Of a stretch of 64,000 bases of DNA, positions 21,001 to 64,000 are shown piece by piece. The stretch covers positions 925,001-989,000 of the forward strand of contig CAJHZI010000547.1 of the NCBI GenBank assembly GCA_905160935.1, given 5' to 3'. Below the pieces are notes generated by a model that saw only the letters and a list, made by a program, of their open reading frames with translations, was not told where the DNA came from and made no database searches. The DNA is from Enchytraeus crypticus (Eukaryota > Annelida > Clitellata > Enchytraeida > Enchytraeidae). Position 1 is the first letter of the stretch. The number at the start of each line of letters is the position of its first letter. The translations under genes were made by a program, and so were the position numbers.

Positions 21001-22479
21001 TTACAGACCATAATTAGCAAACATTTTCTTGAATTGCTGTTCATGAATGTTTACTTTTATTAAGATTTGTCGTTATCTATAGAAAGCATAGGTAAAGTGA
21101 TTTTTACTCAAATATCTATGAAGATGACATTCCTGTTCTACTCTTTGTACGTCAGAGAAACTGCAACTAACGCAATTAGTTCCTGTTGAGATTTACACGA
21201 AAATGCAATATATTTACTGACAAATGTTTATATGCTCATCCGTGCCTCGCTTTTGATGTAATACTAGTACATTGAAAGGTTAAATTTTCAATCAATCTTC
21301 TGAAGCATTACCAAGCTTTGATGATTTATTTATTTATTTCTATTCAGGCGCGACCTACTACGTTCTCGACAGCTACGGTGTGCAGCAGGGTTACCCTCGG
21401 CTCATCTCCGCCATGTGGCCCGGGGTTCCTGCCTACATCGACGCTGCTGTTTACTTTGATCCCGAGTACAGCAACAACGTTCAAGTGCAGCCCGGCTATC
21501 TCTACTTATTCAAGGTACAAACTGGGTTGAACTTATTTCCACGCTGTTATCAATGCACGTCCTCAGAAAGGTTCCAAGTAGACAGCTGAATTTATTATAA
21601 AGCATTATACTAGATATACTAGAATAATTATCAAGTATTCTAAATGAAACTTTTTGAAGAGAGAGAACTAAGTTATTTTAATAAATATAAACTTTTAATG
21701 CGATTAGGATTAGATTTGCTTAGAGCGAAATTAGAATAATTCAGATTATTGATATCTACATTCTTTAATATAAAGAACCTTTGAAGTATTGAATTTACTA
21801 ATTCTATTTTCAAAATTTATTAGGTCACAAATATACAAATATACTTCTAAGTTTTCCTAAGCAGCAATATATTTAAAAATAATTATTGTTACAGCTCTAA
21901 TTTGCAATAATGTACAGTCAATTCAATAGATATAATTTTATATTTCTATTAGTAAAATTTAAATATTATATCAATATATTTATAAGACATAATAAAAACA
22001 AAAAAGCAAAAGCTGGTAAAGCTAAGGTTAAAGTCAATTTCCTCACTCGAAAGCTATGTCAGTGACTGGCGAGTCCAGGATTGAACCCCGCACATACTGA
22101 TCCGCGGTCGAGTATCTTACCGACTTCGCCACTGGCTACAGCCAGTGATATATAGTTGACATAATATCATTATTTGAACTGCAATAAAATCATATATCGC
22201 ATGTTTTTGCAGGGAAGTCAATATTGGAAGTTTGCAAACACAAATCAAGCTTTGCCGGATTATCCGCGATTAATTAGCGAGGGATTTCCTGGAATACCCA
22301 ACGATCTTAGCACCGCATTTGTATGGTCTGGCAGTGGAAACATTTTCTTTATTAAAGGTTCGTGAAATCTATGTAAATTAAAAGGACTTAAATATTGCGA
22401 AGGTTGCTTTTCATATAAACAACCCTATTTAATACCTACTCTATGCGTACCTACCTAGAAGACGAACATCACTGCCATA

Positions 22480-36490: not shown

Positions 36491-36814
36491 TTCTTTTGCT
36501 ACTAGTTTCTATAATTCCTGATACCCTCTTTCCTTAATGTCCACATTTCATATACGTGTAAACACGTGCATATAGTGTGTCGTCCGCACCATGATTTTTT
36601 TAATCTTTACCTTTAATGCTTACATAACACTTTGTAATGTAGGCCTATGACTTTTATTTACAATAATGTAAATTAGAATAGAGGCCCTATTTGTTTTTTT
36701 CCTCATGGCAGAGAAGGATTAAATGAGGCTGACACAGAATGTGAAAAATCTTACGTAAAATCTCAAAGTATATGTTTACCTACCAATTTATCTACGATTA
36801 AAATCCCCTTGCAA

Positions 36815-36935
36815 TCAATCAATCAACAAGAATTTAACGTCCGGTTCCTGGCTATAAGGCAATGTCAGAGACGCCTCTTGCAGAATCTACACAAACACGC
36901 ACCGAAGCACCACACGATTACGACTGAGTAACATG
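36815..36935 (+). repeat. Family S2 copy
   Basis: Contains aatcaatcaatcaacaagaa, tttaacgtccggttcctggc and ggcaatgtcagagacgcctc. Confidence 0.65.
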
Positions 36936-39894: not shown

Positions 39895-40092
39895 ATGAAA
39901 AGTCGGTTCCCAGGACGTCCGACTGCTGATAGTAGAACTGGATTTAATCGAAAGAGGATAGACTGGTTTTCAGAAGAATCGGAATCCAGGAGATTATCGG
40001 TTATCGAGAGGTCTAACCACATCTTCAAGCATTTGAAGAGAATCGAAGAGAAGTTTAAACAGTTTAACGAAATCTCTTCATGGAATGATCAG
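39895..40092 (+). CDS. C4/CXXC gene, first recognised coding exon
   Basis: Begins at ATG two bases after an acceptor (ctctag|GA). Encodes [16 protein letters not shown], then a charged helix [18 protein letters not shown]. Donor gtaaat, phase 0. An upstream UTR or coding exon is likely. Confidence 0.7.
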
Positions 40093-40550
40093 GTAAATCC
40101 TATTTGTTCTCTCTTATCTATTATGTATCTTATCTTTCAAGCGTTCTGCCCAGTGTCAAGTCCAAGGTACATATTCATACTCAGAGTCTGCTTTTACTCT
40201 TCTTAAAGAGTACTCCATAGATCAACAACTTAATTCCTTCACAAAAGTCTAAGACTTAACCATAAATTATGTAGCCTGGATCTTGGAAAAGTATGGCTTC
40301 TGAGGTGGTTCCCCATTACCTTCCGTAGTTCCTGCTTAGTTGCCTCTAATGACAGTTGCAGTTAACGGCTGGTCTATTCTTCAGTGATTCGGACACAAGA
40401 CGAGATAATGCATATTATCTAAGGTACATGATCTCTTTTATCTATGCATTATTTGTATAAGTTATACATTATTATAACTTTATGGAACTTGCAAAATTTA
40501 ACCTATAAAATTACTAATAAAAATTTAATCTATTTAACCTAAGATATACT

Positions 40551-40598
<48 letters not shown>

Positions 40599-42598
40599 TA
40601 TATACATATATATACAGATCATAATACTAAAATAAAATATGTTTTATATATATATATATATTACGCATAATATATATATATATATATATTACACATAATA
40701 TATATATAATATAAATATATATATAGATCTATATATATATATATATAATGCTTAATTAGATAACTTATATATTATCTATATATTATAATAATGTATATAT
40801 TATATTACATAATTGTATAGATAATATTCTATATATATATTAATATGTTTAATATATATATAAAATATTTTATGTTAGTATTATTACATGTTTACATATA
40901 CATTTATCTATTTGGGTAGGTTAAGCTTTTGCAATTTTCTTATGTAATCTTCAGAGTTTATCAAAAATGTAATCTTATGCTTGCAATATTCTGCATCTAT
41001 TGCTAGGTGCTGATTATGTTTGAAATCCAAATAATTATGATAACTGCTAATTTAATTTTTATTTAGTTTATTGCTGTAATTGAACTCTTTCTGTAAAGTA
41101 ATCTCGAAGACTAATACAAATAACTAGGTGTAAGTATGACCCGATCAATCTATGTCGCTTAGCATTACGAGAGTAAGAGGGTATCATTTCTCATACATCG
41201 TAATTTTTATCGAATAGTATTCAGCTTGTAATCGGGATTTCACTTGTTAAGCCCTGTGCTGTATTATATTGTGTTTACCATCATAAAGGACATAATTAGT
41301 AATTTTGGAGACATTTTATTAATAATTTTGGTATATACATATTTATAAATTAACTTAATGAGCGTTTTATCTTAGTGTCACCTGAAATTGTATTACAATG
41401 CATTCATGGAGTTAATGTTGTGATAAATTTAAATGTACATTCTTCGGCAGATATAAATCTGCTCGCAAGATAATTTTATTTGATAAAACAGACATAAGTT
41501 AAAATGAGATAGTTGAATGCGATACTTTAACTAGTATTTTATCTACCATCATATTGAATTTAGGAACTATAAAAATAATAATGAAACGATTAAACGAATT
41601 TTGTTGCTGCTCTGCAAACAATTTAAATTTAAATAATTTCAGGAGTTGTTCGAAGGGTTCTCAGACGAAGATGTGCAGTCCACGTCCGAAGTTATTAGAC
41701 ATCTGACGTCACAGTTAAAATTTCATGACGTCTCTCCTGAACCACAGTCATCATCATCTAATTCAGTTATTGATCGTAAACCAACTGTATGGCATAGAAA
41801 CGGTACTACGGACTTTAAACCACCACATAATCGCAAACAGAAACTATCATCGCTTAAGATTTCTTCACCATCATTTCTGCCCATTTTGGACTATAATATT
41901 GATGGCGCGGACAATAGAGCAAATGACAAATTAGCAAATTACAACAATATTCACAACGTATTTACTGAAATCCGCACAAAACTTGATAAAGGGCAAAATA
42001 AATATGGAAACACCTTGAATGTTAATTTAAATGAGAATGAGAATATCCTGCCCAAGGGTCCTTGTAAAGCTGCAATTAAATCATTGCCTATGAATACGAC
42101 AAATAAATCTAGAAAATTCTTTACCGGCAAGCGCAGACAAAAAATTAATAATGCATTTTCAGATGTAGCTACTAATTCTCAGTCTTCTGTAATTAGGGCT
42201 GATGAAGTTAATTCTCAGTTGGAGTTTAGTAGCGAATCTCCTAGTCAATGGTGTCTTGCGAAGAGATTGCAAGCAAATGAATCTCCCTACAATTTCTCTT
42301 TCGATGAGAGATGTCAGTCAGAAAGCGGCATGAGAAGTGTGTCACCGATAAAACTGACGCTAAAGTTAAACAGGGCAACCAAATCTCTCTCTCCGAACTA
42401 CGTTTATGATCAGAGATCAGCCGGACTGATGATATTGAAAGGTAGGTCGTTGATAATTACACGCTTATAAAAGTATTAGATTTTAAATATTTAATAATAT
42501 TAATAAAGAATAGTTTATTATCATTGAAATAAAATTGACATAGATAATCTAGCAATTATGCATAGATGCTAATGAATTGCATTTAAAACAATGGAACT

Positions 42599-43510: not shown

Positions 43511-44673
43511 GTGTAAATATATATGTATATAATATACTATATATATATACATATATAAATAAATATATATGCATGTATATATATATATATAGGCGTATGT
43601 ATATAGCCTCTCTCTTAGGGCACTGCCTACTGTAAGGTCCATGGTACATAAAATCTCCACTCTTCTCTGTCTTCCGCTTTCCACTTCATGTCCACATATG
43701 AGTGGGTCTTTAAGTCATCTAACATACCTAATCTCGGCCTGCCTCTGCCTCTATTTCCTTCCATTCTACCTTCTATGCCTCATTTAACAGACCTTCCCCC
43801 CTTACAATGTGTCGTATCCAACTCTTCTTCATATTTATTAATACATTTAGGAAGAAGACTCGTGTTTAGTATCACCGTTTCAATTTTGTTTTCATAGATT
43901 TGACCAAGGCAAAGAAACGAGAGCTGCGGTTAAGTTCTGGCAAGGTTCCATCAAGAGATGGCGATGATATTCATCAAGATATGAGTAACTCACTTTCGTC
44001 CAAATTAATGACGCATGAGCAATTGTCTGAGCAGAAACAACAGTTTTCTGAGCAACAGAACGAGCAAGCAAATTCAAATCATCAGCAATTAGATATCAGT
44101 TCATTTAGTCAGTCGATGGTGATACCAATACAGCATCAAGGCACAATAAAGCAGCCAAAAACACAACTGCAGTTTGCAAATAAAACAATAGCCTTACCAA
44201 AGCCTTTATGTCTGCAACTAAACGAACAAGACGGAGGACAGCTTCATGAGCAACAGAGTGAAATAAAGCAACGGACGGCGTTCTCGCCTAAAACCCAATC
44301 ATTGCCGATTAATCATAATCCGCAGTTGGTGAACCTGGCGGTAAATCAGGAAGAGTCTTGCCCACGAGTTCGAGTGTTTCCAGACGAGATGTCCTTGGCA
44401 CGGCTGAGACGTGAAGTGAGACAGTGTTGTATTTGTGGAGCACGTTGCGGTCTAACCAGATACACTGGCTTTACTGGTCTATCTTGCAGAGCTTGCGTCG
44501 AATTCTTCAAAGAGCTTTACTATCAACAGTCCAGGGAGCTGTTAGTCTGCCGTCTTGCTGGTATGTGTTTATTTCAAATTCTGAGAAATATCTATGTGTG
44601 TGATATAGGCCTATATTTAATTGTATATCTATATCTATTTATATATAATTAAATATATTAAATATCTCTAAAA

Positions 44674-44733
<60 letters not shown>

Positions 44734-46743
44734 GAAGAAGAATATATAATTAAGAAGAAGAAGTGCACCGTCAGAGAGATGAGGCTCGTCCTCGCTGGAA
44801 CTTAACAGTACAATTTTGCAAAAGTTACTGCTGTAGAAAAATATTATTTGTAGAAAAAATGCTCTAGCATAAGCCAGTAACGCAGTTGTCAAAATGTTTA
44901 GCAGTTGAGAATATGAAAGGTTCATTGGATCATAAGCGGTGGGTTGACGATGCGGACGTTAACATGGTTTTATTCATTCTTCTTTGACCGTTACAGTTAT
45001 AAAAGTAATGTAGATATTTCAAATTGGCTACTTCAAAAACTCACAGAGTTTTCTAGCTCTTTACTAGCATCACGCTATTCTCGTGTCATTATAGTTAGCT
45101 ATTCTATTTGACTTGTTTCATAATAATATAGCTGTATCCGCTAATTGTTTTGCTATTGGGTAATCTATCTCTTTTGTTCCCTTTGTTTGTTGATGTTGTT
45201 GTATTAAAAATCTTTATGAAATTAAAAGTAGAAAAGGTCTGGAGCTTTGCTTCAATTCCTCTTCTCTGTGACGACTAGCAGATTAATGTCAACAACCAGA
45301 TTTACCCTCATCAGTTCTCAGATTAAAAGTGATATAAATGAAAAGTTAAATAAATTTTTTTAATAAAATTAAACAATTAATTTAAATAGAAAGTTTCTAT
45401 TTTTTACAATGTTTGTGTAATTACTTAATCAACACGGCTGCTTTGTTTTCCTGGCTTGATCTCCACTGTGTTAGCATCGTTTCGAGCTTTCTGTATATTA
45501 GTTCTGGCTGCAAAGTTTCACGTCGGTTTTTACATCTGCATTCGTTATATCCGGCAAGAGTATCTCAACTTGGAAAGCTGCTGAAAGGAATATATTATAA
45601 CCTGATAGAAAATTTTAAAATAAATTATTATGAGCAGATATATTATTATGAGGTCCATTGTAAAGAAATTGATTCAATGTGATCTTTCTAACTTTCTCAT
45701 GAATTAATACATTATACACGCAGATCTTAGTTGATTATGTACCGCACTAAATTTCTATTTTTCTTATCCGTCATATTTTGCAGGCAACTGTAAAATTCGC
45801 TATTCATCGGAGATTGAAAACTGCAGAGCTTGTCATTACAGCAAATGCTTGCGTCATTTTGACTTCCATTTTGCAGGTAAATTTTAATTTACAGTACACT
45901 TTCATGAAATATAAACATGTACATGCATAGTAGTAGTGTAATTGGTTTAACTCTTTAGTTCAGTAAGTTATACTGCTGTTCTGTTCATTGGGATCTGACA
46001 ACCATGCATTTTAGTCTTGTGCAAAATTATAATTATATCAGTTTCTATTATCTAAAGTATTACGATCCCGCTTCCGCGTTTCTGAAGAATTGGCCGGCCA
46101 TGGACTGCACGTGTCGTAAGAGGTGACAAAATACTGAGATCCAAGCGAACGTCAGAAAGGACATTCGGTTGGTTACCGCCTAGGATTTAGATATTGCTAT
46201 AAAATGTTCTAATCCCGATCCTAGTTAAATTGGGATTCAAGGAAAGATAATAATGATGACTATATCTGACGCATATAAGTTAGGAACAATTTTTAGAGTA
46301 AATAAGGCAATTATACATCGCCAATTATCGCCGAACAACTTGCCAACATGCCACCGGCTCAGCTCAGTTTAGTCGCCTCTTTGGTGCAATAAGACTTGAG
46401 CACGCACTGAGCTTAGGCCTCTTATTAATATCTTATCTAAACCTTGCGAATTTAACCTATTTTTTAATATTAGACGAATTTAAAAAAAATCCTTTTAGCA
46501 GTTGTTATTGTAATAGCTTTCTTATATTCACGTAAGCTATCAGAAATATTTCTAATAAATAAAGCAACAACAACTTGTGAACTAAGTAATTTTAGATTAA
46601 GGCTCTAGAAAAATTGTGGATACGATATTCATTCACGTAATTCTATTTCTAGTTATATTTTGAGAAGATGAAATAAACCGATCCAGTTTCTTTGCAGTCT
46701 GGTTTTTTCCAAGTTAAATTTGAGGCGTGCAAAAAACCGATAG

Positions 46744-46790
<47 letters not shown>

Positions 46791-49407
46791 TATCATCATT
46801 ATCATCATTATCATCATTATCATCATTATCATCATCATCATTATCATCATCATCATCATCGTCATCATCATCTTTCCTTTAATCCCGGTTAAACTAGGGT
46901 CGGGATACGAATAGACCTTCTCCACTCCTCTCTGTTCCATAGCATATGATCAGTCAATCCCGTGTAACCTCTTCTATTCGTTTATAAAACTTAGTGGCAA
47001 TTTCTGGAGTCTAGGAGCTCACCAATTGAATGCCCCTTCCGACGTTGGTTTGGATCTTAGTGCTTTAGTCGCCTTCTACGACACATGCAGTCGCAGGTTG
47101 GTCAATTCTTCAAGCAACACGGACACGTTACGGGAAACAGATAGATCATAATGCATTAACCAAAAATTTTTAACTATTGCATTAAAAGTGATAGATATAA
47201 ATAAGGATCATTATTTCACTGTATGTACTATATACATTTATATGTTTTTCAATATTGATATTGGTAATAATTAGGCTAATTTTAGCTAGAACAATTATAA
47301 TGTGAACAATTATTGCAGGTTCACAGTTCTCAATATCGGTTATCGACAGTGTTCTGTTTTATTCGCATATGTTTTTTGTTTCCGTGTAGTTTACTTTATT
47401 GGGCACATTTTGGAATTTCGGGCACATGTTAGAGTTTTCGGACCTTTGTGTGCTTTTCATTTCATGTGAACGGCTGTATCTTATAAGATTTTTCTAACTA
47501 TATTGTGTGAAATGAGTGAATCATCTTAAATAAAATAAAATAAAATTGATATGCATGTATTTGATTATATTGTTTTAGCCTCTATTTATTCGATGCCGAA
47601 TTGTCAAACTCAACTGAATATAGAAGAGCTTTCAGCTGTCCCGGTGGATTCAGATTTAAACCAAATGTATAACCCGCACTGTACAGAGACCCCCAATGCT
47701 GGGACCTATCCTATTGATTCATCAAATTATATCCGGTCGGATAGTTCAACATCAAACAGTCTCACTCCGTCACTGTGTCCGTCAATTCGGAATGAAGGAA
47801 ACAGTGATTTGGAAATGCCTCAAACTTCAAATTACAAATTGGTTGAAACTAATCTCTCTCCGCGAACCCCATTAAAAACTGTCTCCAATGTTTCTAGAAA
47901 ACTAATCCAAGGAGAAAATGCTCTTAAGAAAGATTTTCATAAAAAGTCGAGAGAGCATGAATTGGATGAAAATAGCAGATCAACGGAAGAGGAGCCAAGT
48001 GAGAAAAGGAGAAAGATATGTGCGAGTGTTCCTTGGATAGATGGAGTAGCTACCGCTTCTCGTGGCAGGAAGAGACGTTGTCAGAAGTGTTCAGGATGTC
48101 TGGCCAAGAAATGTGGGACTTGTGATCCGTGCAGGTAAATATACATGTTACTCTCTCTCTTAGTGCACTGCTTAATGGCATGTCCAATGTCCATGGTATA
48201 TAACGCCTCCACTTTTTTTTGTCTTCCGCTTTCCTCTTCATGTCCACATATGAGTCGATCTTTAAATCATGTAACATACCTAATCTTGGCCTACCTCTAA
48301 CTCTTTTTCCTTCCATTATACCTTCTTCGACCTCTTTTATAAGATTTTCCCCCCTTTAGAATGTTTCTTATCATTCTCTTCTGTAAGCACTATATGTCTA
48401 CCATTATACAATACTAATTTAAATTTAAAATCCCAATTCTGACCGCTTTTCTTCTGCAGTATTTTATTTTGGAAATTGCTTTGTATGAATCGGTTTGCTG
48501 TGAAGTGAAACAGAGGTGCCCTGACATTATAGTTCCATGATTATATGGGCATTAGATCTTTATTATTTTATTGTAAACAGAGAAAGTAAGTTAAATCAGG
48601 TCGTTGCAGCTTTTGAGATTGAGTCAACTAATTGGTTGATGGAGTTCTTCTTAATTATTGTGTGTGATTAATTGATTACTTCGAAGACCGCTATAGAAAT
48701 ATTTATTTACTTTGCATGAATCTCTATGCATGTCACTCGTATGCCTATGATAATTATACGTAAACTCAGGTATATGTATTAACTCAGTTCATGCATTATT
48801 CACACAGTTCTCAAATTCAATTTAATTTTATACTCAAAAATGGTAAAAATGAACACTAATACTTCCAAAATGACTTCGATTAGTGAAGTCTCAGCTCTTC
48901 GACTGTTATGTTATCTACAGTATTTCTAACTATTTAAAATTATATATTGAGTTATAATGTTGCTTTATATAATTCTTGTTTTAATCATATGCTTATTAAA
49001 TCAATATTCATTTATTAAGTATATATTGCGTCTATATAGACTATTGCATCTGTATATATTGTCGTTTTATTTTTTGGATTTCATGTAGATTCTGTTTGCT
49101 CATTTATTTTCCTATTTGCTTATGTGTCTGATGGGTATTGGTTAAAGTGGGAATATGCTACTAAGCTAATGGCAAGGTCAGAATATTTGCCCACCTCCAT
49201 ATATTCACAAGTCTCCTAGTGCCCCTTGCAGGGGAAATCACCTCCGAAAAAATGAGAGCTAGGGGAACTGCGTTCCACATCATTCTCACCACTTAAGCTA
49301 CTGCTGATGGATGGTCAACTAGATAGGTTACTTGTAACCTCTGACATCCTTGCATGTGTGTCATTGTATGCATCGATTGTTTTGAAAATATACATAGCCC
49401 CACACTA

Positions 49408-49493
<86 letters not shown>

Positions 49494-50474
49494 AATATAG
49501 TTTTATGAAAACGCATATATGCTCCGATAGTAAGTATTTCATTGAGGCTGCTCCAATAAGTTAAGTTGTAGAAAATGCACGCGAATATTGCTAAGTTAAT
49601 TAAGGTTTGTTAAATATGTAATGTTTATTTATTTATTTATGATTTTGTACTACTGCTATAGACTAAGCAAAGAAAACAAAAGAGAGAAAGCTGTTCGATC
49701 AATATGCACGTAAGTACTCTATAGCCTCAATATCTGAATTATAGGCCTCATATAGCACGTCTACATAATTGCTTTAAACCCTAGTGATTTTATAGTTTAC
49801 AATTATAGATGAAGTAGTTTGTACCGAGGCATCAATAGGATGATTAATATCATTGATGATGTATTTGATCAAGACTACAAATATGCGCACATACTTTCTG
49901 TTTATCCATATTCATTTTAATTTAAGAAGTAAACTTAGATGTTACTTTTCTTCTCTAAAACAACTGTCAGATTGGTTGGTCTGGAACACTAATATCAGCA
50001 TGTGTGCTATCAGCGTTTACAGCCAATGTTAGCTTTCGTTAACTAGCGCCTCAAATTATTATAATAAAATAAAATAATTTTTAAATAATTTAATTACTAA
50101 TATAATAAGTATATTAATAATTAAATTATTTAAAAATTATTTTATTTTATTATAATAATTATAGCAATTATTAGTATAATTAAATTGAATCGATTTTCCC
50201 TATAATTTTATTGATCTAATGCTATTCTATATTTGTTGTGACGTGTGATGGGGAACGTCCCTGACATCATTCTTGTATGAGGAAACGGACATTGAACCTT
50301 TATTATTACTAATATAATTACTATTATTCTTGCAGTATTTGTATACCTAGCTTCTCCTCAATTGCCATAAGAAACTAAAGTTAGCATCCTGAAAATTTTA
50401 ATGTAAGCATTCTGAAATGTTTTGAATAGTCAGAGAAAATTTTGCTCGCTTAATTTTTACATAGCTTCAATATT

Positions 50475-50525
<51 letters not shown>

Positions 50526-53461
50526 AGAGAAAGAGAGATTTAGGGGGAGACAGAAAGGGTGATGGAGAGAAAGATGGAATTGCTTGAACTAAGAATTCAT
50601 AGAGTAATGATAGTTCTTAAAGGGTGAAACTGCGAAAAATCACAGTTACCACAGTGTTTGTTTTGTTATTCATATTAATCTAACAGTAATAATTCTTCAA
50701 TTCATTTTCAATTGATCAAAATGACTGTTGCTATTATTATCAGAGCTCTCTTCGTTTTCATTTAGGTGTTAGTAGCAGCAAAGTATTAGTTTTATTTGTA
50801 ATATTATTCAGATCTTTATCACCTACATATTTACAGAAAAAGGATATGCTTGTTTCCTGGAAATCCGAGACCGAAAATATCAGAAAGTGAAAATCGACGG
50901 TTATCGTTCGAGTCAATTTCTTCTCTGCCAAGTTCTTCAGTCCTGAATGCATTCTTCAGTACAGGTAAAATAGTAAATTACTTCTTTATTCGATGTAGAC
51001 AACGCAACAACAACAGCAACACTGTCAATTAGACACTTAAAGAGATTATGCTGTACAATTATTAAGTTTAAGTTTTGGAAACACCTTGTATACAAACTAA
51101 TTTTGATCGTTAGAAGAAAAAAAATATCATATGTATAATATTGATTTGATTAAGTTAGTATCTAGTTTCTATTTATTAAATATCTCGTTTTTATTATTTA
51201 TTCTCGAGTTTCATCCGCAATAAATGTGTATCTAAGAAGTTCTGAAGGACTTGAGATTTAGTGTTTTAAATCTTATTGGAGAAGAGTGTCAAATATATTT
51301 CAATTTTATTTCTTAAAGCATTATAGTTTACTCGTTTTGTTTTGTTCGAGTTGTTTGACTGCACGTGTCGTAGAAGGCGGCTAGTCACTCAGATCCAAAG
51401 CAACGCCATTTCTGGCGTTGCTTTGATGAGCGTTGTTCTTAGGTTGATGAGCGCCAAGACTCCAGAAATTGGTACACAATTTTCCAAAAGGAAATGGAAT
51501 GGATTATATGAAATAGACGGATTGCATGGTATGGACAGAGAGGAGTGGAGAAGGTCTATTCGTATCCGGACACTAGTTGAACTGGGAATAAGGGGAAGAC
51601 GACGATGATTATAATTTACTTGTATTTAAAAGATACGTAAGCAAAGCTTCATTAGAGGTTTAGGACTTATTTAAAGTATAGCAGCTGTGTGCACTGTGTA
51701 CGTCTAGTAATTATGTTCAGGTAATTTTATTCAATGTGATTATTTTTAAAGTCATTATGTTTAATGTCATTTTACATATAATGCCATTGTGTTTAATGTC
51801 CTTATGTTCAGTATCTTTGTATTTAATGTCACTGTGTTTAATTTCATTGTATTTAATGTCATTGTATTTAATGTCAGTGTGTTTTATGTCAGTGTGTTTA
51901 ATGCCAGTGTGTTTAATGTTATTTTATATGCGTAGCCAGTTGCTCCACTAGACAATGCATTCGTTAGAAGTTCTCGGACACAACGTACGCAAAGAAACAT
52001 TAAAGATCATCACTCCAGCGATGTAGCGAGTGATGTAAGTAAGGATACTTTCATTATAACGATTTCATTATATACTATCCTTTGTTATTATTGAAAAAAT
52101 ATGACCATGGTTAATATTTAATTTTTGAAACTGATATAAAAACAATTAAATAGCACTACCAAGAGTACTTTTAACCATAAGCGATTAATCAGCTTCAACA
52201 TGATTTTATATTCTCACTTGATATTAAACGCAGCAGTGAACAGGATGAAGGTAAACAGAGTCTTTGTTAAAGCCTTCGTGGACGACGAATGGTCTAGTAA
52301 TGGGCACGCAGGAGTTGTAAGCGAGAGATCGCGGATTCGACGCTCTTATTAATTTTGCTTTTAATTCTTATTTAGTGAGGACAGCCAGAGACCCGATTTA
52401 TCATCTATACAAACATCATACTCAATGTGAGCTGTTTATATAAGACGCAATTAATTTCATGATTAATTTCATGATTAATTTCATGATTAATTTCATGATT
52501 AATTTCATGATTAATTTCATGATTAATTTCATGATTAATTTCATGATTAATTTCATGATTAATTTCATGATTAATTTCATGATTAATTTCATGATTAATT
52601 TCATGATTGACATTCCTGACATTGCCTTATGGCGAGGAACCGGAAGTTAAATTCTTATTGATTGATTGATTGATTGATGGTCAAGTAGTAGTCCTATGTA
52701 TGTTTCTTTAGGACTTAGTTGTTTCCTTTCTATATATTTTTTACTTATTTTTCGGCTTCGTTACTTTGATGGCCTAGTAGAATATCGAATGCTGCATATC
52801 ATTGTATTGTATTGTATTGTATAATAGTGTATAATATTGTATTTAGTGTATTGTATTGTTCTGAATTACATCACATTGCATACTTTGTTTTGTATTGATG
52901 TATTGTAATGTATCGGATTGCAATGAAATGTATTTTATTGAATTGTATTAAAGTGTATTGCATTGTATTCTATTGTAGCGTACCGTATTTTATTGTATTG
53001 CATTGTCTTGTACTGTATTTTATAATATTGTATTTTATTATATTGCATTGTATTTTATTATACGGCATTATTCTTAACTGCTTTTCATTTCACTGCAATA
53101 CATTGTATGTTTTTGAATTGTTTTGTTCTGCGTTGCATATTACTGCATTGCATTGAACTATATCGCAGTATGCTCCAGAGCAATGCAATGCATGATGCAT
53201 TGTACTAAATTACATTGTACTACATTATATTGCATGATCTTGTTGGTTATTTAGGATATTCAGTCAATTTCCGATGAAGAAAAGGTTAAGCAGATTTCAT
53301 TCATGGACTTCATTCGCCTATCAGACGAGATTGACGAGTGGCAGAACGTTAATGAAGAGAAACCTTCTGAATTTTGTAAATACTCATTTCTAAGACACAT
53401 AATTCAGCAAGTCCTACCAGATTTTACCTGCAGGCTTTCCGATGCGTTAAATTTACCTTAG
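39895..53461 (+). CDS. C4 (nuclear-receptor-type) finger plus CXXC zinc finger protein, 9 exons, 928 aa
   Basis: Probable nuclear DNA-binding regulator. Exons: 39895-40092, 41643-42441, 43898-44560, 45784-45876, 47579-48134, 49662-49709, 50837-50964, 51940-52034, 53255-53461; every junction keeps phase, 2787 nt. Residues 1-66 are basic with a short helix; 67-508 look disordered, Ser/Asn- then Gln-rich. Residues 509-576 form a divergent nuclear-receptor DNA-binding domain: [41 protein letters not shown]. Residues 752-790 form a CXXC finger with all eight Cys at canonical spacing (C-x2-C-x2-C-x4-C-x2-C-x2-C-x15-C-x4-C), preceded by basic stretches EKRRK and RGRKRR that fit an NLS. CXXC fingers of CFP1, MLL and KDM2 bind unmethylated CpG. 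No ligand-binding domain was found. The C-terminal 69 residues are helical and unassigned. An upstream exon may exist because an acceptor precedes the first ATG. Confidence 0.8.
40145..40410 (+). repeat. Family R5 copy
   Basis: Contains ccaaggtacatattcatact, gagtactccatagatcaaca and gctggtctattcttcagtga. It begins about 50 bases after the first exon. Confidence 0.65.
40557..40870. repeat. Compound TA-rich microsatellites
   Basis: Several TA runs with ttacacataa interruptions. Confidence 0.85.
41643..42441 (+). CDS. C4/CXXC gene exon 2, disordered region
   Basis: A 799-nt open exon from aatttcag to gtaggt, starting [20 protein letters not shown]. Low-complexity Ser/Asn/Lys content with SP motifs; no domain recognised. 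The long open frame in AT-rich DNA and matching phases support it as coding. Confidence 0.82.
42605..42680. repeat. (CT)n run and element start
   Basis: CT run followed by cggcaggtccatgga, the same arrangement as in the GRPR-LINE copies. Confidence 0.7.
42808..42846. repeat. (ATT)n microsatellite
   Basis: About 13 ATT units. Confidence 0.95.
42855..43200 (-). mobile_element. Decayed LINE ORF2 end, reverse
   Basis: Minus strand resembles the element at 32640 ([11 protein letters not shown] followed by text like the other copy, and aagacctagaagtacttgg). Confidence 0.5.
43456..43590. repeat. TA-rich microsatellite
   Basis: Long TA run and imperfect extension. Confidence 0.9.
43600..43860 (-). 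mobile_element. LINE 3'-end remnant, GRPR family, reverse
   Basis: Contains agggcactgcctactgtaag, gtccacatatgagtgggtct and ctcggcctgcctctgcctct. It ends just before exon 3 of the C4/CXXC gene. Confidence 0.6.
43898..44560 (+). CDS. C4/CXXC gene exon 3, Gln-rich region and first zinc module
   Basis: Gln-rich tract ([16 protein letters not shown] and similar), then [18 protein letters not shown] and [18 protein letters not shown], the first C4 module and recognition helix of a nuclear-receptor-like domain. It ends inside the second module (LLVCRLA), phase 1. Confidence 0.88.
44677..44727. repeat. (TA)n microsatellite
   Basis: TA run about 115 bases after exon 3. Confidence 0.9.
45784..45876 (+). 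CDS. C4/CXXC gene exon 4, second zinc module
   Basis: Encodes [20 protein letters not shown] then [10 protein letters not shown], matching the C-x9/10-C-x2-C-x4-C end of nuclear receptor fingers. Acceptor ttttgcag, donor gtaaat. Confidence 0.88.
46065..46265 (+). repeat. Family R4 copy
   Basis: Contains ggactgcacgtgtcgtaaga, gaacgtcagaaaggacattc and aattgggattcaaggaaaga, ending at a short GAT-like run. Confidence 0.65.
46740..47140 (-). repeat. Family R4 copy, reverse, with (CAT)n tail
   Basis: A (CAT)n/(TTATCA)n array at 46744-46872 followed by the reverse element (aaactagggtcgggatacga, cgacgttggtttggatctta). Confidence 0.65.
47579..48134 (+). CDS. C4/CXXC gene exon 5, linker and first six CXXC cysteines
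   Basis: Ser/Thr-rich linker with several SP sites, basic patch [15 protein letters not shown], then [18 protein letters not shown] and GTCDPC. Phase 1 in, phase 2 out at gtaaat. Confidence 0.88.
48148..48380 (-). mobile_element. LINE 3'-end remnant, GRPR family, reverse
   Basis: Minus strand is open for [20 protein letters not shown] and [13 protein letters not shown], a LINE ORF2 C-terminus. It abuts the donor of C4/CXXC exon 5. Confidence 0.65.
49412..49491. repeat. (CT)n-(TA)n compound microsatellite
   Basis: About 40 bases of CT directly joined to about 40 of TA. Confidence 0.95.
49662..49709 (+). CDS. C4/CXXC gene exon 6, 48-nt microexon inside the CXXC finger
   Basis: Encodes [15 protein letters not shown] between the sixth and seventh CXXC cysteines. 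Acceptor ctatag, donor gtaagt; phase 2 on both sides. Its length is exactly what canonical spacing requires. Confidence 0.85.
50054..50160. repeat. Perfect 43-bp inverted repeat
   Basis: Arms 50054-50096 and 50118-50160 are exact reverse complements with a 21-base spacer, all A/T. It lies in intron 6 of the C4/CXXC gene and may be a foldback or MITE-like element. Confidence 0.95.
50225..50310 (-). repeat. Family S2 copy, reverse
   Basis: Contains gaacgtccctgacatcattc and gaggaaacggacattgaac. Confidence 0.5.
50477..50540. repeat. (GA)n microsatellite
   Basis: GA run with minor interruptions, about 300 bases before exon 7. Confidence 0.9.
50837..50964 (+). CDS. C4/CXXC gene exon 7, end of the CXXC finger
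   Basis: Encodes [18 protein letters not shown] with the eighth zinc Cys, then a Ser-rich tail to FFST. Acceptor tttacag, donor gtaaaa. Confidence 0.85.
51350..51610 (+). repeat. Family R4 copy
   Basis: Contains gactgcacgtgtcgtagaag and tatggacagagaggagtgga, ending gacgacgatgatt. Confidence 0.65.
51730..51925. repeat. Degenerate tandem repeat
   Basis: About ten loose copies of tttaatgtcattgtg end at the acceptor of C4/CXXC exon 8. Confidence 0.8.
51940..52034 (+). CDS. C4/CXXC gene exon 8
   Basis: Encodes [20 protein letters not shown] then [11 protein letters not shown]. Acceptor gtagccag, donor gtaagt; the alternative AG four bases upstream runs into a stop. Confidence 0.75.
52448..52607. 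repeat. 12-bp minisatellite
   Basis: About 13 perfect copies of atgattaatttc, followed directly by a reverse S2 copy (52607-52680). Confidence 0.95.
52607..52680 (-). repeat. Family S2 copy, reverse
   Basis: Contains gacattgccttatggcgagg, aaccgg and an (ATTG)n end. Confidence 0.65.
52790..53245. repeat. Degenerate TATTG/TTGCA tandem region
   Basis: Hundreds of bases of loosely repeated pentamers (tattg, ttgca) fill the end of the last intron up to the acceptor of exon 9. Confidence 0.75.
53255..53461 (+). CDS. C4/CXXC gene exon 9, C-terminus
   Basis: Encodes [33 protein letters not shown] and a last helix [14 protein letters not shown], ending DALNLP and TAG. No family recognised. Confidence 0.8.
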   Translation, partial: DIQSISDEEKVKQISFMDFIRLSDEIDEWQNVNEEKPSEFCKYSFLRHIIQQVLPDFTCRLSDALNLP

Positions 53462-53554
53462 TTTTTACTGTGATGTGTAATGATCGACATTTTTTCGAAC
53501 ATAATTCGAGTGATTTTATCGCACTATTCAAACGACGAACTACACACGTTTGTA

Positions 53555-53560
53555 ATTAAA
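53555..53560 (+). terminator. Possible polyadenylation signal of the C4/CXXC gene
   Basis: ATTAAA, the commonest variant signal, about 95 bases after the stop codon. Confidence 0.4.
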
Positions 53561-53929
53561 GACCTGCAAAGTTTCGCTTGCCACATTCATACAGTGTAGT
53601 GGGCCTACTGGGTATATGAAGGCACACTGTTTAATTAAATATTAACCTTGAGCCTATCAAAAACGCTCCCATGTTCGAGACCGCCCTTGAGCGCACCCTG
53701 TGCTCAAAATATAAGTGAGCGCTACATCAGAGTTCTGCGGGACCCGGGAGCGCCTGCTTCCTTCCCCCCACTTTTACCACTGCATTGTAATGATTGCATC
53801 AAAGACGTGTTAGTACTTTGCGATCTATGGCAATAGTGTCTAACTAAACAACTGCTATTCATCCATCTTGAACTTCTCCAGCTGACAACAGCTTTCATTT
53901 TAACGTCCTGTTACTCCACTCCACTTCAA

Positions 53930-54180
53930 TTTCCCGTATTGTTTCCAAGTCATTACGGAACAGACCAACCGTGAACTGCGTGCGTCGTAAGAGATAATTA
54001 AGGTGAAAGCTTACGGCAATGAAAAAGCCCTTCAGAAGCTATTGAGATAAAAGTTACATTAAAGCTGAGTAAATTTTGATTCCTTTTGATGTATCAACTT
54101 ATTCGTTAGTGGAGTGTTCTTATTGAACGTCAAAGCAGACTGAAGTAGAAGAAGCTTCGGACCTGCTACTTGGCAAATCA
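53930..54180 (-). repeat. Family R5 copy, reverse
   Basis: Contains cggaacagaccaaccgtgaa and gaccattcg-like ends, with acctgctacttggca matching the R5 start. Confidence 0.5.
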
Positions 54181-55179
54181 CAAGAGTTATATTTAAATTT
54201 ATAAAATTTATTTTTCCTCGCATTCCTGCAACCTACTCCCCGCCAGTGCTGCAGCTGCCCAGGGGAGAGGGGCTGCATCGTTCACCCTAAGAACTACTGA
54301 TCCAAGCTGACTGTATTGTAGTGTGTAGGATAGGTTATTTTGAGCTTGCGTTACATTGTAGACTTATCTCAAATTGTAAACTGGTTAATTTTGTTGTATT
54401 CTTCAAAACAAGTAAATTAAAATTAAAGGGCAAAAGTAAAAAACTGTTTGCATTTTAACATTTTCCGTAGTGGTAGGTCTAGTCAGTAACATGACTGCTG
54501 CTTCAGCTGACGACACGGTTTCAGTCCCGGTGTCAGTCAGATCAGCTATCGCAGTCTGCTGATTATATCACGTCCTATTCCACGGTCAACTGCAATCACA
54601 GACGTTATACTCTAATTTAACTTAAAAATTAATTCTCGACCTGAACAATATTGCACTTTTATTTTATCAATCAGTCAATCAATCAATGCAACATTAGATA
54701 GTATGTTTAAATATGATAATATGATAATCATATGATAATAAGTTTACGGTTAATCAATCAATAGAACATAAGATACAATCGTGGATAAGGTCACAAGGTT
54801 TAGAGATCTCAGTAAGTTAACAATACAGGGACTAGACATGCAGTCAGTTAATGACTGCTTATACTAACAAAGCATTATCACTGGATTGATGCCAAGAAAC
54901 CACGAACAATTAATGGAACTCACATCGTCATGTCAAGATAAACAACTGTTTAACTTATAGTCAAATGAGACGTGCAATTTTACTAGCAGTTCCAGCGATT
55001 TAATTACATGAGACCTAGGATAAATTATCACATCCCAATACAAAAATGTCAGTAGAATTACCATCAAGCAGCAGTAGACATACCAAGACACATTTTAAAC
55101 GATTTGATGGAGCAAGCAGAAGATATATCATCAGAAAAATCTACAACATATCTGAATCTACTCATACTCATACGATGCT

Positions 55180-55858
55180 ATGTGCTAGCCTTTGCTCAAC
55201 AGATAGAGATGTGATGAGGTACGTGATAGAGGGGTTCGATGTGATGCTATGTGATGGACGCTGATGATGTGATAGAGATGTGAGAGACGTGATGATGTAT
55301 GTGATAGAGGTGTTGATGTGATGGTATGTGCTGGACGCTGATGATGTGATAGAGATGTGAAAGATGTGATGATGTATGTGATAGAGTTGTTTGATGTGAT
55401 GGTATGTGCTGGACGCTGATGATGTGATAGAGATGTGAAAGATGCGATGATGTATGTGATAGAGGTGATAGATGTGATGATATGTGCTGGACGTTGGTGA
55501 TGTGATAGAGATGTGAAAGATGTGATGATGTATGTGATAGAGGTGATAGATGTGATGCTATGTGCTGGACGTTGGTGATGTGATAGAGATGTGAAAGATG
55601 TGATGATGTATGTGATAGAGGTGATAGATGTGATGCTATGTGCTGGACGTTGGTGATGTGATAGAGATGTGAAAGATGTGATGATGTATGTGATAGAGGT
55701 GTTTAATGTGATGCTATGTGCTGGACGCTGATGATGTGATAGAGATGTGATGATGTATGTGAGAGAGGTGATAGATGTGATGCTATGTGTGGACGCTGAT
55801 GATGTGATAGAGATGTGATAGATGCATGTATGTGATAGATAAAGGTGATAGATGTGAC
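55180..55858. repeat. Minisatellite of about 80 bp seeded at a coding end
   Basis: About eight copies of a unit containing gatagagatgtgaaagatgt and gctatgtgctggacgctgat. The last piece resembles ctatgtgccgggcgctgata, which is the stop codon and final codons of the minus-strand gene. Confidence 0.85.
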
Positions 55859-55859
55859 G

Positions 55860-55968
55860 CTATGTGCCGGGCGCTGATAATCTTCTGATGTAGTCTTTCA
55901 GCTGGACGTTGTCTGTCAGATCCTCTAACCTCAGTGGAACCGTCTGTCTGCAGCCAGCATACGGGCAC
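55860..55968 (-). CDS. SP-RING gene last exon
   Basis: Encodes CPYAGCRQTVPLRLEDLTDN and VQLKDYIRRLSAPGT then TAG, the second half of the SP-RING and the C-terminal helix as in NSE2. Phase 2 junction with the preceding exon completes a Lys. Confidence 0.88.
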
Positions 55969-58443
55969 CTATACATTACATGCAATAGCATACAAATTAA
56001 TTTTGAAAAAGATATTTTTCAATTTAGAAATTTGCATCCGTTTTGTGACCGGGTTGCTGAAGAATAGACCAAGCGAGACTGCACGTGTCGTAAATTGCTA
56101 CAAAGCATTCCAACCAACGTCAGAAAGAGAATTCGGTTGGTGTGCGCCTAGGCTCCAGAAATTGCTATAAAATTTTAAATTCCCGATCCTAGATAAATTG
56201 GGATATAATGGAAGATGATGATGATTAAAACTAGCGTTGTATTTGTCTTCTCTTCAGTCCACTGCCAAGTGGCAGGTTCAAGGTACATATTCATACTCAA
56301 AGTTTGCTTTTTCGCTCTATTAGAGCACTCCTTAGATCAACAAGTTAAGCCCTTCACAAAGTCTATGCCTTATCCATACCTTATGTAGCCTATAGGTTGG
56401 GAAAAATATTGCATTTGTATACAAATGAAATCTAATCAAAATAAGCCGCATTAGAGGCTTCATAGAGATGGAATAGATTCCCGCACTAGCCAGAGACTTT
56501 TGAGACTGAGGAAGATATTCCCATTCTAGCTAGAGACTGCTCAATTTTTCAAAATAAACAAAATTCTACAAACACGATGAATTGAATGCCCGCGATGCTA
56601 GATTAGCAGATCAATGTTGCTCATCCAATATCAGGACTATACTTAACAGCTGATGAAAGATGTCACAGGTTCTACATACTAATCCCGTGACTCACTTAGC
56701 ATTGCCCAGGCGTTTCACTATGAACTCCAGTATGGCCTGTTTCTCGTAGTTGTGTCCACAGATCCTGTTCCTCACCGGATCCTTCATGATCAGCTGCGTG
56801 TAGGGACACTTAATCCCTACCTCCTCCCGAGTCATTATCAGATCATCATCATCTTCTTCCTTGCTGCCTGGTACAACAGTGCTGCTCAGTTCCATCGCCA
56901 GCTTCTCGAAGACTGCAGAAACCTGCTGCTTCTCTCTCTTCAGAGATTCAAGAGCCTCGGCATTCGTTCTGATGTCGCCCTTTATCTGCGCCAGACGACA
57001 GAAGCCGACGACGATGTTAAGGACCTGTACAGAGAGCGTGACCTGAGATTTTCTGAACGTGAGCTGTCGTATTGCAAGCTCCTGCTCAGAGTTAATGCTG
57101 TTGAGAAAGAGCAGCATGTACTTGCTGCTCGGATCTGCAATAATAACATACAGGCAGCATGTACATCATCAGCAAATAAGAATAGGGAAGAAAGTTTAGG
57201 ACAACAGGAGCTTAAATCATTTATATAGATAATGAACAGGATGGGCCCCAGTACACTGCCTTGTGGAACGCCGCTATGAACGGTAGACCAGTCCGAATAG
57301 CATTTACTTATTCTGACAGTCTGCAGTCTGCCAGTTAAAAAGGACGAAAGCCAATTTAATAGAGTACCGGACACACCACAGGCTAGCAATTTATATAGTA
57401 ACTTACTGTGGCTTATGGAATCGAAAGCCTGGAGAAGGCTTTCGATTCCCTTCTATAACTGAAGAAGTGACGGACCTGGAAGTAAGGTTTACACGCGATT
57501 TATCGTTCTCTACTCATATAAAAGATATTTGCAATAAAGCCAGAAAAAGGGCTTCAATAATCTTACACTGCTTCAAGTCTAAAAATCAGGTCACATTGTT
57601 TAGAGCGTTCACAGTTTTTGTGCGTCCAATTCTCGATTACTGTTCAAGCCTTTGGTCTCCTTACAGAAAATGTGATATTGTCCTGGTAGAATCAATCCAG
57701 AGACGATTCACGAAACGGCTCAGAGGTATGATGAGACTGCAGTATAAGGAGAGATTAAAATTGTTGGCTACTGAATCGCTAGAACAGCGAAGACTCAAAT
57801 CCGACTTATGCATGTACTATAAAATCATCTCTGGATTGGTCGACCTACCTTTAGAAGAGTTTTTTGTTTTCAAAAAAGGCGTCACCAGAAACAATGGTTT
57901 AAGTTTATATCTGAATAAATTCCATTTTAATGCTGAAAGGTACTATTTCAAAAACCGATGCATTGATTGTTGGAATTCACTACCCCCAAGTATTGTTAAC
58001 GCATCTAACTTAAACTCTTTTAAAAAGTGTTTAGACGGTATCGACCTTAGCAAATATTTGAAAAGTTAAGGAACTATATTAAAAGCATAAACTCGTTATC
58101 TGTAAAGATTTCCTTCATATAATTATTTTTTTATTCTAAGTAATCTATTGTTTTTACCAATTTTAATATTGCCATTTATGACAACTGTGTGTAAAGTAAT
58201 CTGTTTAACTTAAATTAAGTGGCTGTATTTTCACGTTTTGAAGTTCAATTGTGCAATATCCTAATCATTTTAATATTTGAACTTGCTAAATACACCTTTG
58301 TGTATATTTTAATATGATTACTTCCTTATGCTTTTAAATTCGGAATATGTAAGTGCCACTTGTGGCCTTTATCTCCGTTCATGCGCTGATGCTGTTTGTG
58401 TATAATTGTAAAGTCTATGTTTGTGACATGCGTATGATAAATA

Positions 58444-58480
<37 letters not shown>

Positions 58481-61029
58481 TACTTGCTTATATCTATCAT
58501 AATAAAAAATAGGCAGCAAGTACTTCCTGCTTTTACATGTAATAGCACACAGGTCGCATGGCCCTGGTGCTTGTATCTGTAATATTAAATTATAGACAAC
58601 AAATACTTGAAAATTCAGCATTCACTTGCTGCTCACAATTCTAATAACAAACAGGCAGCATGTACCTGACATTAATTCTAATCTTTATTTAAAAATAGGC
58701 AGCATGTATCTGACACTCATATATGTAATAGTAGAGAAAATAGTCGATAGGTAATGAACATATAAGGGACACTAGTAGACAGATAATGGACAAGTAGAGA
58801 CATAAGTAGACAGATAATGGATATGTAAAGACACTAGTAGACAGATAATGGACATGTAGAGACATTAGTAGACATATAGTGAACATGTCGAGACACTAGT
58901 AGACAGACATGGGACATTTAGAGACACTAGTAGACAGATAATGGACATGTAGAGACATTAGTAGACATGTAGTGAATATGTCGAGACACTAGTAGACAGA
59001 CATGGGACATTTAGAGACACTAGTAGACAGATAATGGACATATAAAGACGCTAATAGGCAAAAAAGGACATGTAGAAACACTAGTAGACTGGTGATGGAC
59101 ACGTACAGACATCAATCAAGGAGCTACCAACTTTCTCCTGTGGGATCAAACTGAGACCGCAGCCCTGACTGCATGCCTAAGTTCTGCCTCAACTTCTCAG
59201 ACAGTGCCCAGGAAAGCCTGATGAAGAGCACACTGATCTTGTTGAAACAAACCTCACACGAGATAATATCATCAGCATTGATGCAGATCTCCTGAAGTCC
59301 ACACGTGCGTCCTACACATAACAGAGATCTCCTAAACATACATCTCATACACATACACAGAGTTCTCCTAAATATACATCTCATACACATACACAGAGTT
59401 CTCCTCAACATACATCTCATACACATACACATGTATGTCCTACACATACACAAGTATCTCCTACACATACACACGTATCTCCTACACATACACACAAAGA
59501 TGTCATGCACATAAAACACGCATCTCTTACATATACACAATATCTCCTACACTTACACACATAAAACTTCAGTGTAAGGCTCTGTTTTCTAGTAAGAAGA
59601 CGACAAGATAGGCATGCTGATCTTGAGCTACAGAATCACAGGAAAATAGACAGAGAGAAAATAAATACAGAAAGAGAGAGAGAGAGAGGGAGAGAGGGAG
59701 AGAGAGAGGCGGCATACCTTTAATGGTGAAGAAGATGCCACTAGAAGGTTCTGACCTGATTCTCACCTGACCCACACACTGAGCGATCATACTGCCAATA
59801 CGTACACACGCGCAGCTCAGCTGTACCTCAGTGTTCTGTACCGTATCTACACAAATAGCACAACAAGAGTACCAGTGTATCTCAGTGTTCTGTACCGTAT
59901 CTACACAAATAGTACAACAAGAGTACCAGCGTACCTCAGTGTTCTGTACCGTATCTACACAAATAGTACAACAAGAGTACCACTGTACCTCAGTGTTCTG
60001 TACCGTATCTACACAAATAGCACAACAAGAGTACCAGTGTACCTCAGTGTTCTGTACCGTATCTACACCAATAGTACAACAAGAGTACCAGTGTACCTCA
60101 GTGTTCTGTACCGTATCTACACAAATAGCACATATACAAAAACAGTACAACAGTACCTCAGTGTTCTATACCGCATCTACACAAATAGTACAACAAGAGT
60201 ACCAGTGTACCTCAGTGTTCTGTTCCGTATCTACACAAATAGTACATATACAACAAGATTACCAGTGTACCTCAGTATTCCTACACATACAAAAACAGTA
60301 CAACTGTACCTCAGTGTTCTGTACCATTTGTACACCTATAGCAACAGTACAACTGTATCTTAGTGTTCTGTACCATAGCTACACAAACTGCATAACAACA
60401 ATACAACTGTATCAGTGTTCTGTATCATACTTGCACATATAGAAAGAATACAACTGTATCAGTGTTCTGTATCATACTTACAATATATAACAACAATACA
60501 ACTGTATCAGTGGTCTGTATCATACTTACAATATATAACAACAATACAACTGTATCAGTGGTCTGTATCATACCTACAATATATAACAACAATACAACTG
60601 TATCAGTGGTCTGTATCATACCTACAATATATAACAACAATACAACTGCATCAGTGGTCTGTATCATACCTACAATATATAACAACAATACAACTGTATC
60701 AGTGGTCTGTATCATACCTACAATATATAACAACAATACAACTTCATCAGTGGTCTGTATCATACCTACGCATATAACAACGAATCTACCTCTCAAAAGC
60801 AGCACTGAATGAGACACAAAGGACAACAAAAAGCAGACACGGTTAAACAAGGGGGTATATCAATGTAATGCATAGTGCTAGAGGCGGGTAATAAAGTAAA
60901 GTATAATGTATAAACATCGTATTATCTAGGACTAACCTTCGCCACAGATTTGACTGGGTATTGAACAGTAAAGAAAGTGAAATCAAGTGAGACTGGACAA
61001 AAGATAAACACAGTAACTAGGTCGAGAGA

Positions 61030-61061
<32 letters not shown>

Positions 61062-63886: not shown

Positions 63887-64000
63887 CTACAAAGTTAAAC
63901 GGTGCGTATAATTAGATATGTTAGACTCGTGAATTTATTTTTCTAGAGAATTTTACTCTACAACAAAATGACACGGTGGTCGTTTACAATTAGCCTATAG

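Follow-up and report, generated by a model that had tools for sequence, protein, structure and literature searches.

The gene identified on the forward strand of an Enchytraeus crypticus contig (GenBank assembly GCA_905160935.1, contig CAJHZI010000547.1) probably codes for the N-terminal (targeting) half of a chromatin regulator of the trithorax/MLL (KMT2A/B) type. Its spliced reading frame contains, in this order, a menin-type core, a LEDGF-type FxGF motif, a variant C4 finger of the nuclear-receptor type and a CXXC finger. The proposed family assignment is drawn from these motifs and from the overall architecture, and not from an alignment to a named trithorax protein. All coordinates given below refer to the window, i.e. 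the whole stretch of 64,000 nucleotides that was analyzed (positions 925,001 to 989,000 of the contig).

Structure of the gene

Positions 40001–64000 of the window were read and stop-to-stop frames of at least 80 residues were listed for the window. Seven exons, located between positions 39895 and 50964 (+), are joined through GT-AG sites into a single open frame of 828 residues containing no stop. The first-pass annotation had proposed that the last five of them (43898–44560, 45784–45876, 47579–48134, 49662–49709 and 50837–50964) are spliced in phase into one frame, which agrees with the AG acceptor and GT donor found at each of these exons. Two predicted downstream exons (51940–52034 and 53255–53461) lengthen the predicted protein from 828 to 928 residues, with a TAG stop codon at 53461. 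The exons are as follows:

39895..40092, + strand: exon 1, starting at the first in-frame ATG; donor CAG/GTAAAT
41643..42441, + strand: exon 2, a linker without a Pfam domain
43898..44560, + strand: exon 3, the first C4 module (44425–44508) and the beginning of the second
45784..45876, + strand: exon 4, the rest of the second C4 module (C556–C575, to 45848)
47579..48134, + strand: exon 5, a linker, a basic run (RGRKRR) and, from the CXXC finger, the cluster of six cysteines (48079–48132)
49662..49709, + strand: exon 6 (48 nt), encoding the CXXC DNA-contact loop and C785
50837..50964, + strand: exon 7, the last CXXC cysteine (C790) followed by a downstream linker
51940..52034, + strand: exon 8 (predicted), open in phase; donor GAT/GTAAGT, score 7.3
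53255..53461, + strand: exon 9 (predicted), open in phase to the TAG codon; likely the terminal exon

A site resembling an AG acceptor terminates 2 nt 5′ of the exon 1 ATG, and therefore a leader exon may lie upstream. Exon 8 was picked from several in-phase splice pairs by its GTAAGT donor; a direct join of exon 7 to exon 9 runs into stops, and exon 8 is thus required. The donors of exons 1–8 scored 6.5–10.2 with a generic donor matrix, and those that were ranked (exons 1, 3, 5 and 8) fell within the top 1.1–1.8% among 3492 GT sites. The eight introns are 975–1702 bases long.

The location of the C4 and CXXC fingers on separate transcripts, i.e. in two genes, seems very improbable, since exon 5 (556 nt, open) appears to link both fingers, and the predicted joins of exons 4–5 and 5–6–7 are in phase and have good donors. 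Degeneration to a pseudogene, or truncation after duplication, is still less credible. Such an origin would fit with the fact that neither finger reaches the Pfam cut-off and that the SET part was not seen, but the coding part comprises 2787 bases without a stop before the last codon, and both the finger cysteines and the splice sites are kept. Moreover, the G+C content of the coding exons (0.41) is above that of the 8-kb blocks of the window (0.33–0.39). The CpG observed/expected ratios (window, 0.81; exons, 0.89) do not clearly indicate heavy methylation in the germ line and are not decisive.

Three pairs of dispersed repeats (79–85% alike) were detected: 43634–43801/48186–48353, 46139–46257/56107–56225 and 46855–46935/51535–51615 (inverted). 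Five of the six copies lie within introns of the trithorax-like gene and some adjoin ATC/ATG runs; our guess is that they are SINE copies. On the 5′ side of the gene, a frame at 36677–36931 (+) shows a weak match to the DAN domain (E 0.028, below cut-off), and matrix metalloproteinase exons were found at 14953–15255 and 21284–21586 (+) (Peptidase_M10, E 6e-20; hemopexin, E 1.4e-8). Rfam and tRNA scans produced no matches, and neither did NCBIfam. Several other Pfam matches remained below the cut-off and were regarded as fortuitous: in exons 8–9, XendoU (E 0.074) and RGS12_usC (E 0.12); in residues 1–103, BRX_N (E 1); in the CXXC piece, PRKCH_uORF2 (E 7.5); and in the downstream DNA, COX2_TM (E 0.034).

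Candidate docking motifs at the amino terminus

Two short motifs were found close to the start of the predicted protein:

39904..39921, + strand: RFPGRP (residues 4–9), putative core of a menin-binding motif, pattern RFP.RP
40087..41660, + strand: DQELFEGF (residues 65–72), putative LEDGF IBD-binding motif D/ExExFxGF, spanning the exon 1/2 junction (40087–40092 plus 41643–41660)

The former resembles the sequence RWRFPARP (residues 6–13) at the start of MLL1, described as a menin ligand (PMC5368065); the JunD sequence RLFPGAPTA is described as another (PMC8911756). The pattern RFP.RP occurred anywhere in 97 of 200,000 shuffles, and in only two of 200,000 did it start within the first 12 residues. 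DQELFEGF matches D/ExExFxGF, the consensus given for motif 2 of MLL1 and for other LEDGF partners (PMC8022399), and a motif of this type appeared in 67 of 200,000 shuffled versions of the 828-residue sequence. Docking of FxGF to a LEDGF-type domain is reported to be used also in flies, by JASPer and JIL-1 (PMC6877644).

The 928-residue model contains neither the AT-hook core RGRP nor LEDGF motif 1 (N-x3-F-x3-F), which in MLL1 is formed by N125, F129 and F133 according to PMC8022399. A phmmer comparison of residues 1–91 with solved structures gave 10 matches up to E 10, all of them irrelevant and none a menin or LEDGF complex, and a 21-residue piece containing the LEDGF-type motif gave no match in the same kind of search. 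The combination of a menin-type and a LEDGF-type motif at the amino end points to the trithorax/MLL family.

A variant C4 finger of the nuclear-receptor type

The two-module C4 finger, placed at C509–C575 in the first-pass annotation, was recovered with the same cysteine numbers in the 828-residue frame. Its spacing is C-x2-C-x16-C-x2-C, followed by C-x5-C-x10-C-x2-C-x4-C. Two C4 modules, a CxxCxxFF helix and a CxxCxxxxKCL ending are common to this finger and to those of GR, ERR and PPARg. In contrast, the alignment showed that the DNA-binding domains of nuclear receptors have x13 in place of x16 and x9 in place of x10, so that the first module is here three residues longer between the cysteine pairs and the second is one residue longer. 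These additional residues would be in keeping with a receptor-type domain of a “variant” kind.

The complete cysteine pattern was obtained in none of 200,000 shuffles of the 828-residue protein, and the pattern of the first module occurs once in the six frames of the whole window, in this gene. Comparison of the C4 region with a profile of four receptor sequences gave an hhalign probability of 90.8% (E 1.2e-6, 65 columns), compared to 0.5% for the CXXC piece. When the cysteines were fixed and the other residues shuffled, one of 5000 sequences attained the score of the actual C4 finger (20.0 vs 18.3 bits), and none of 5000 did so when all residues were shuffled. The match to the receptor profile is therefore rarely explained by the cysteines alone.

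The best match of the finger among solved structures was GR (phmmer, E 0.0013); this similarity is weak, and reached E 0.014 with the whole 828 residues. At E ≤ 1 the search retrieved 34 distinct sequences, of which 31 are, by name, nuclear receptors or reconstructed ancestral ones, the remaining three being one ribosomal protein and two copper transporters. Pfam zf-C4 did not match the product of exons 2–7 at E 1. Pattern scans with the C4 piece gave five matches in viral contigs and 36 in prokaryote contigs, with no relative among them.

It had also been noted in the first-pass annotation that no ligand-binding domain follows the fingers, and Pfam analysis of exons 2–7, exons 8–9 and the downstream DNA likewise gave no match to such a domain. 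A new family of hormone receptors was rejected on these grounds, and because the family marks point to trithorax.

A CXXC finger without the CpG-reading loop motifs

The CXXC finger (C752–C790), with all eight cysteines correctly spaced, was confirmed in the 828-residue frame. It is composed of the clusters CxxCxxCx4CGxCxxC and CxxRxC, 15 residues apart, which corresponds to the published form CxxCxxCx4/5CGxCxxC plus CxxRxC (PMC3685328). This cysteine pattern was absent from 200,000 shuffles of the 828-residue protein, and the six-cysteine cluster occurs once in the six frames of the whole window, in this gene. KDM2A was the best match among solved structures (E 0.00056). The scores obtained with Pfam zf-CXXC were 18.3 bits for the 762-residue product of exons 2–7 and 23.9 bits (E 4.2e-5) for the CXXC piece, both under the cut-off of 26.5. 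In the Pfam comparison of the two pieces, the CXXC finger was recognized below the cut-off and the C4 piece did not match zf-C4 at E 10.

The eight cysteines, the CxxRxC second cluster and the 15-residue linker are common to this finger and the CXXC domains of KDM2A, KDM2B, FBXL19 and CFP1. However, the alignment placed VRS where KDM2A has MKQ and CFP1 has IRQ in the loop, and KFGG is absent. In type-1 CXXC domains the reading of CpG is described as linked with a KQ/RQ dipeptide, and KFGG may provide rigidity; type-2 domains are described as keeping the linker length while having lost both KQ/RQ and their resemblance to type 1 (PMC3685328). Compared with KDM2A and CFP1, the linker analyzed here has the type-1 length (15) without KFGG and without KQ/RQ, and therefore the reading of CpG methylation is not to be assumed. 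Judging by this loop, the finger probably does not discriminate CpG methylation as MLL1 or CFP1 do. The initial proposal that the protein reads the CpG methylation state is weakened accordingly, and methyl-CpG discrimination was dropped as unsupported.

Probable assignment to the trithorax/MLL family

Trithorax reportedly carries a variant nuclear-receptor-type domain, as worded in the title of a 1995 paper by Stassen. The likeness of the Drosophila domain to the variant receptor-type C4 finger present here is by description. The descriptions of MLL consulted mention no receptor-type C4 finger, and we know of none. The sequence VFPDEM (residues 492–497) resembles VFPDDM, located upstream of the CXXC domain of MLL1.

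Drosophila trx, described as a member of the KMT2A/B group (PMC7762615), is stated to have no CXXC domain (PMC6647185), whereas in the E. crypticus protein a CXXC finger follows the C4 finger. MLL and MLL2 are described as carrying a CXXC domain together with AT hooks (PMC6647185). The CXXC finger is thus a feature shared with MLL1/MLL2 (KMT2A/KMT2B); in contrast, their AT hooks and LEDGF motif 1 of MLL1 were not found here, and the CXXC loop lacks KFGG and KQ. The trithorax/MLL family is the simplest home for this gene: both types of finger have been described within it, although in different animals, and here one protein has the two. The first-pass annotation knew of no described family with this pair. 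Within the open-access literature, no description of a C4 plus CXXC pair in one protein appeared among the matches listed, and the combination may be undescribed; as far as these sources describe them, each finger separately is nevertheless known in the trithorax/MLL family.

Searches for protein homologues aligned no trithorax/MLL orthologue. Residues 480–810 of the 828-residue model gave 2004 candidates, none at E 0.01; residues 140–220 of a 2900-residue read-through frame, a search aimed at long proteins, gave 15 candidates, none at E 0.01; and the exon 3 frame gave 252 candidates, none at E 0.1. This is probably because the protein collection is poor in animal proteins.

The gene might instead be unrelated to trithorax, if the receptor-type and CXXC fingers had been joined independently and the menin- and LEDGF-like motifs had arisen by chance or convergence. 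We regard this as unlikely. In its favour, no homologue ties the protein to trithorax, no SET domain was found in the window, and short motifs do arise by chance, as the counts of 67 and 97 in 200,000 shuffles illustrate. Against such an origin stands the presence of four trithorax/MLL marks in one protein, namely two short motifs near its start and both types of finger, as well as the position of the menin core, found so near the start in so few shuffles. Assignment to the trithorax/MLL family remains the preferred interpretation.

The 3′ end of the gene

PHD, FYR and SET domains follow the CXXC position in MLL-type proteins. None of the three was found in the six frames of 50965–64000 (Pfam, E 0.1) or when the whole window was scanned for motifs, two approaches in which intron-split domains could escape detection. 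As the window stops at 64000, the protein is not classed here as a methyltransferase. Codon use within exon 9 is coding-like in 53255–53374 (7 of 535 length-matched controls reached the same level) but not in 53375–53458, where 457 of 997 control frames did. This tail speaks for an earlier end of the exon, whereas the poor donors speak against it: exon 9 contains seven GT sites, the highest-scoring of which reached 2.7 and the one at 53375 only −1.3, compared to the 6.5–10.2 of exons 1–8. An ATTAAA sequence is located at 53555, and there is no AATAAA on the + strand before 56553.

An NSMCE2-like SUMO-ligase gene at about 55860–57000 (−) (zf-Nse, E 8.3e-12) converges on the trithorax-like gene; its last exon was assigned by eye, with the stop at 55860–55862. 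The end of this gene adjoins a 78-base minisatellite of about nine copies (55177–55881), and reading through the latter gives long spurious frames. A reverse-transcriptase fragment at 56982–57452 (−) (RVT_1, E 6.9e-14) apparently represents a retroelement just upstream of an NSMCE2-like exon, overlapping its read-through.

Two sub-cases of the trithorax/MLL assignment may be considered. A full-length trithorax, to which we give somewhat less than an even chance, would require exon 9 to be spliced at a weak site, with PHD, bromodomain, FYR and SET exons beyond 64000 and the NSMCE2-like gene nested on the opposite strand of a large intron. This arrangement would agree with descriptions of KMT2 proteins, which carry SET (PMC7762615), and of MLL1, which also has FYRN/FYRC (PMC7294230) and PHD fingers (PMC6647185). 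It would also agree with an exon end near 53374, as the 84 bases before the stop codon in exon 9 do not show coding-like codon use; in addition, exons without domains could be missed, as could intron-split domains, and the window ends at 64000. However, one or more introns would then span over 10 kb and another gene, far beyond the lengths seen elsewhere in this gene; the low donor scores of exon 9 and the lack of any PHD, FYR or SET signature in the six frames also argue against it.

In the other sub-case the docking and DNA-reading half, with both fingers, would form a gene of its own, a SET-less “MLL-N” with a product of about 928 residues. An end at 53461, with ATTAAA at 53555, is a simpler layout than a trithorax running past 64000; still, we consider a SET-less gene a tentative and rather doubtful option.

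Possible function and significance

The motifs permit a conditional scheme of how the product of this trithorax/MLL-type gene may act. Its first residues would dock menin and its FxGF motif would dock a protein of the LEDGF/JASPer type, and both contacts might hold it on active chromatin and genes. The C4 finger could place its first helix in the major groove of DNA without control by a ligand, while the adjacent CXXC finger may add a non-specific contact with DNA or protein. With a SET domain the protein would be an H3K4 methyltransferase; without it, an adaptor or a competitor of full-length trithorax.

A receptor-type finger without CXXC is described for fly trithorax, and CXXC for vertebrate MLL. 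One gene containing both fingers would point to two independent modules, either of which was lost in some lineage, and not to the replacement of one by the other. Such a gene would also provide a likely ancestral layout, in which the role of the receptor-type finger could be addressed. Should the gene truly stop short of SET, it would represent a naturally occurring form of MLL confined to targeting, able to compete with or redirect the methyltransferase, and a natural counterpart of the amino-terminal part of MLL that is kept in leukaemia fusions.
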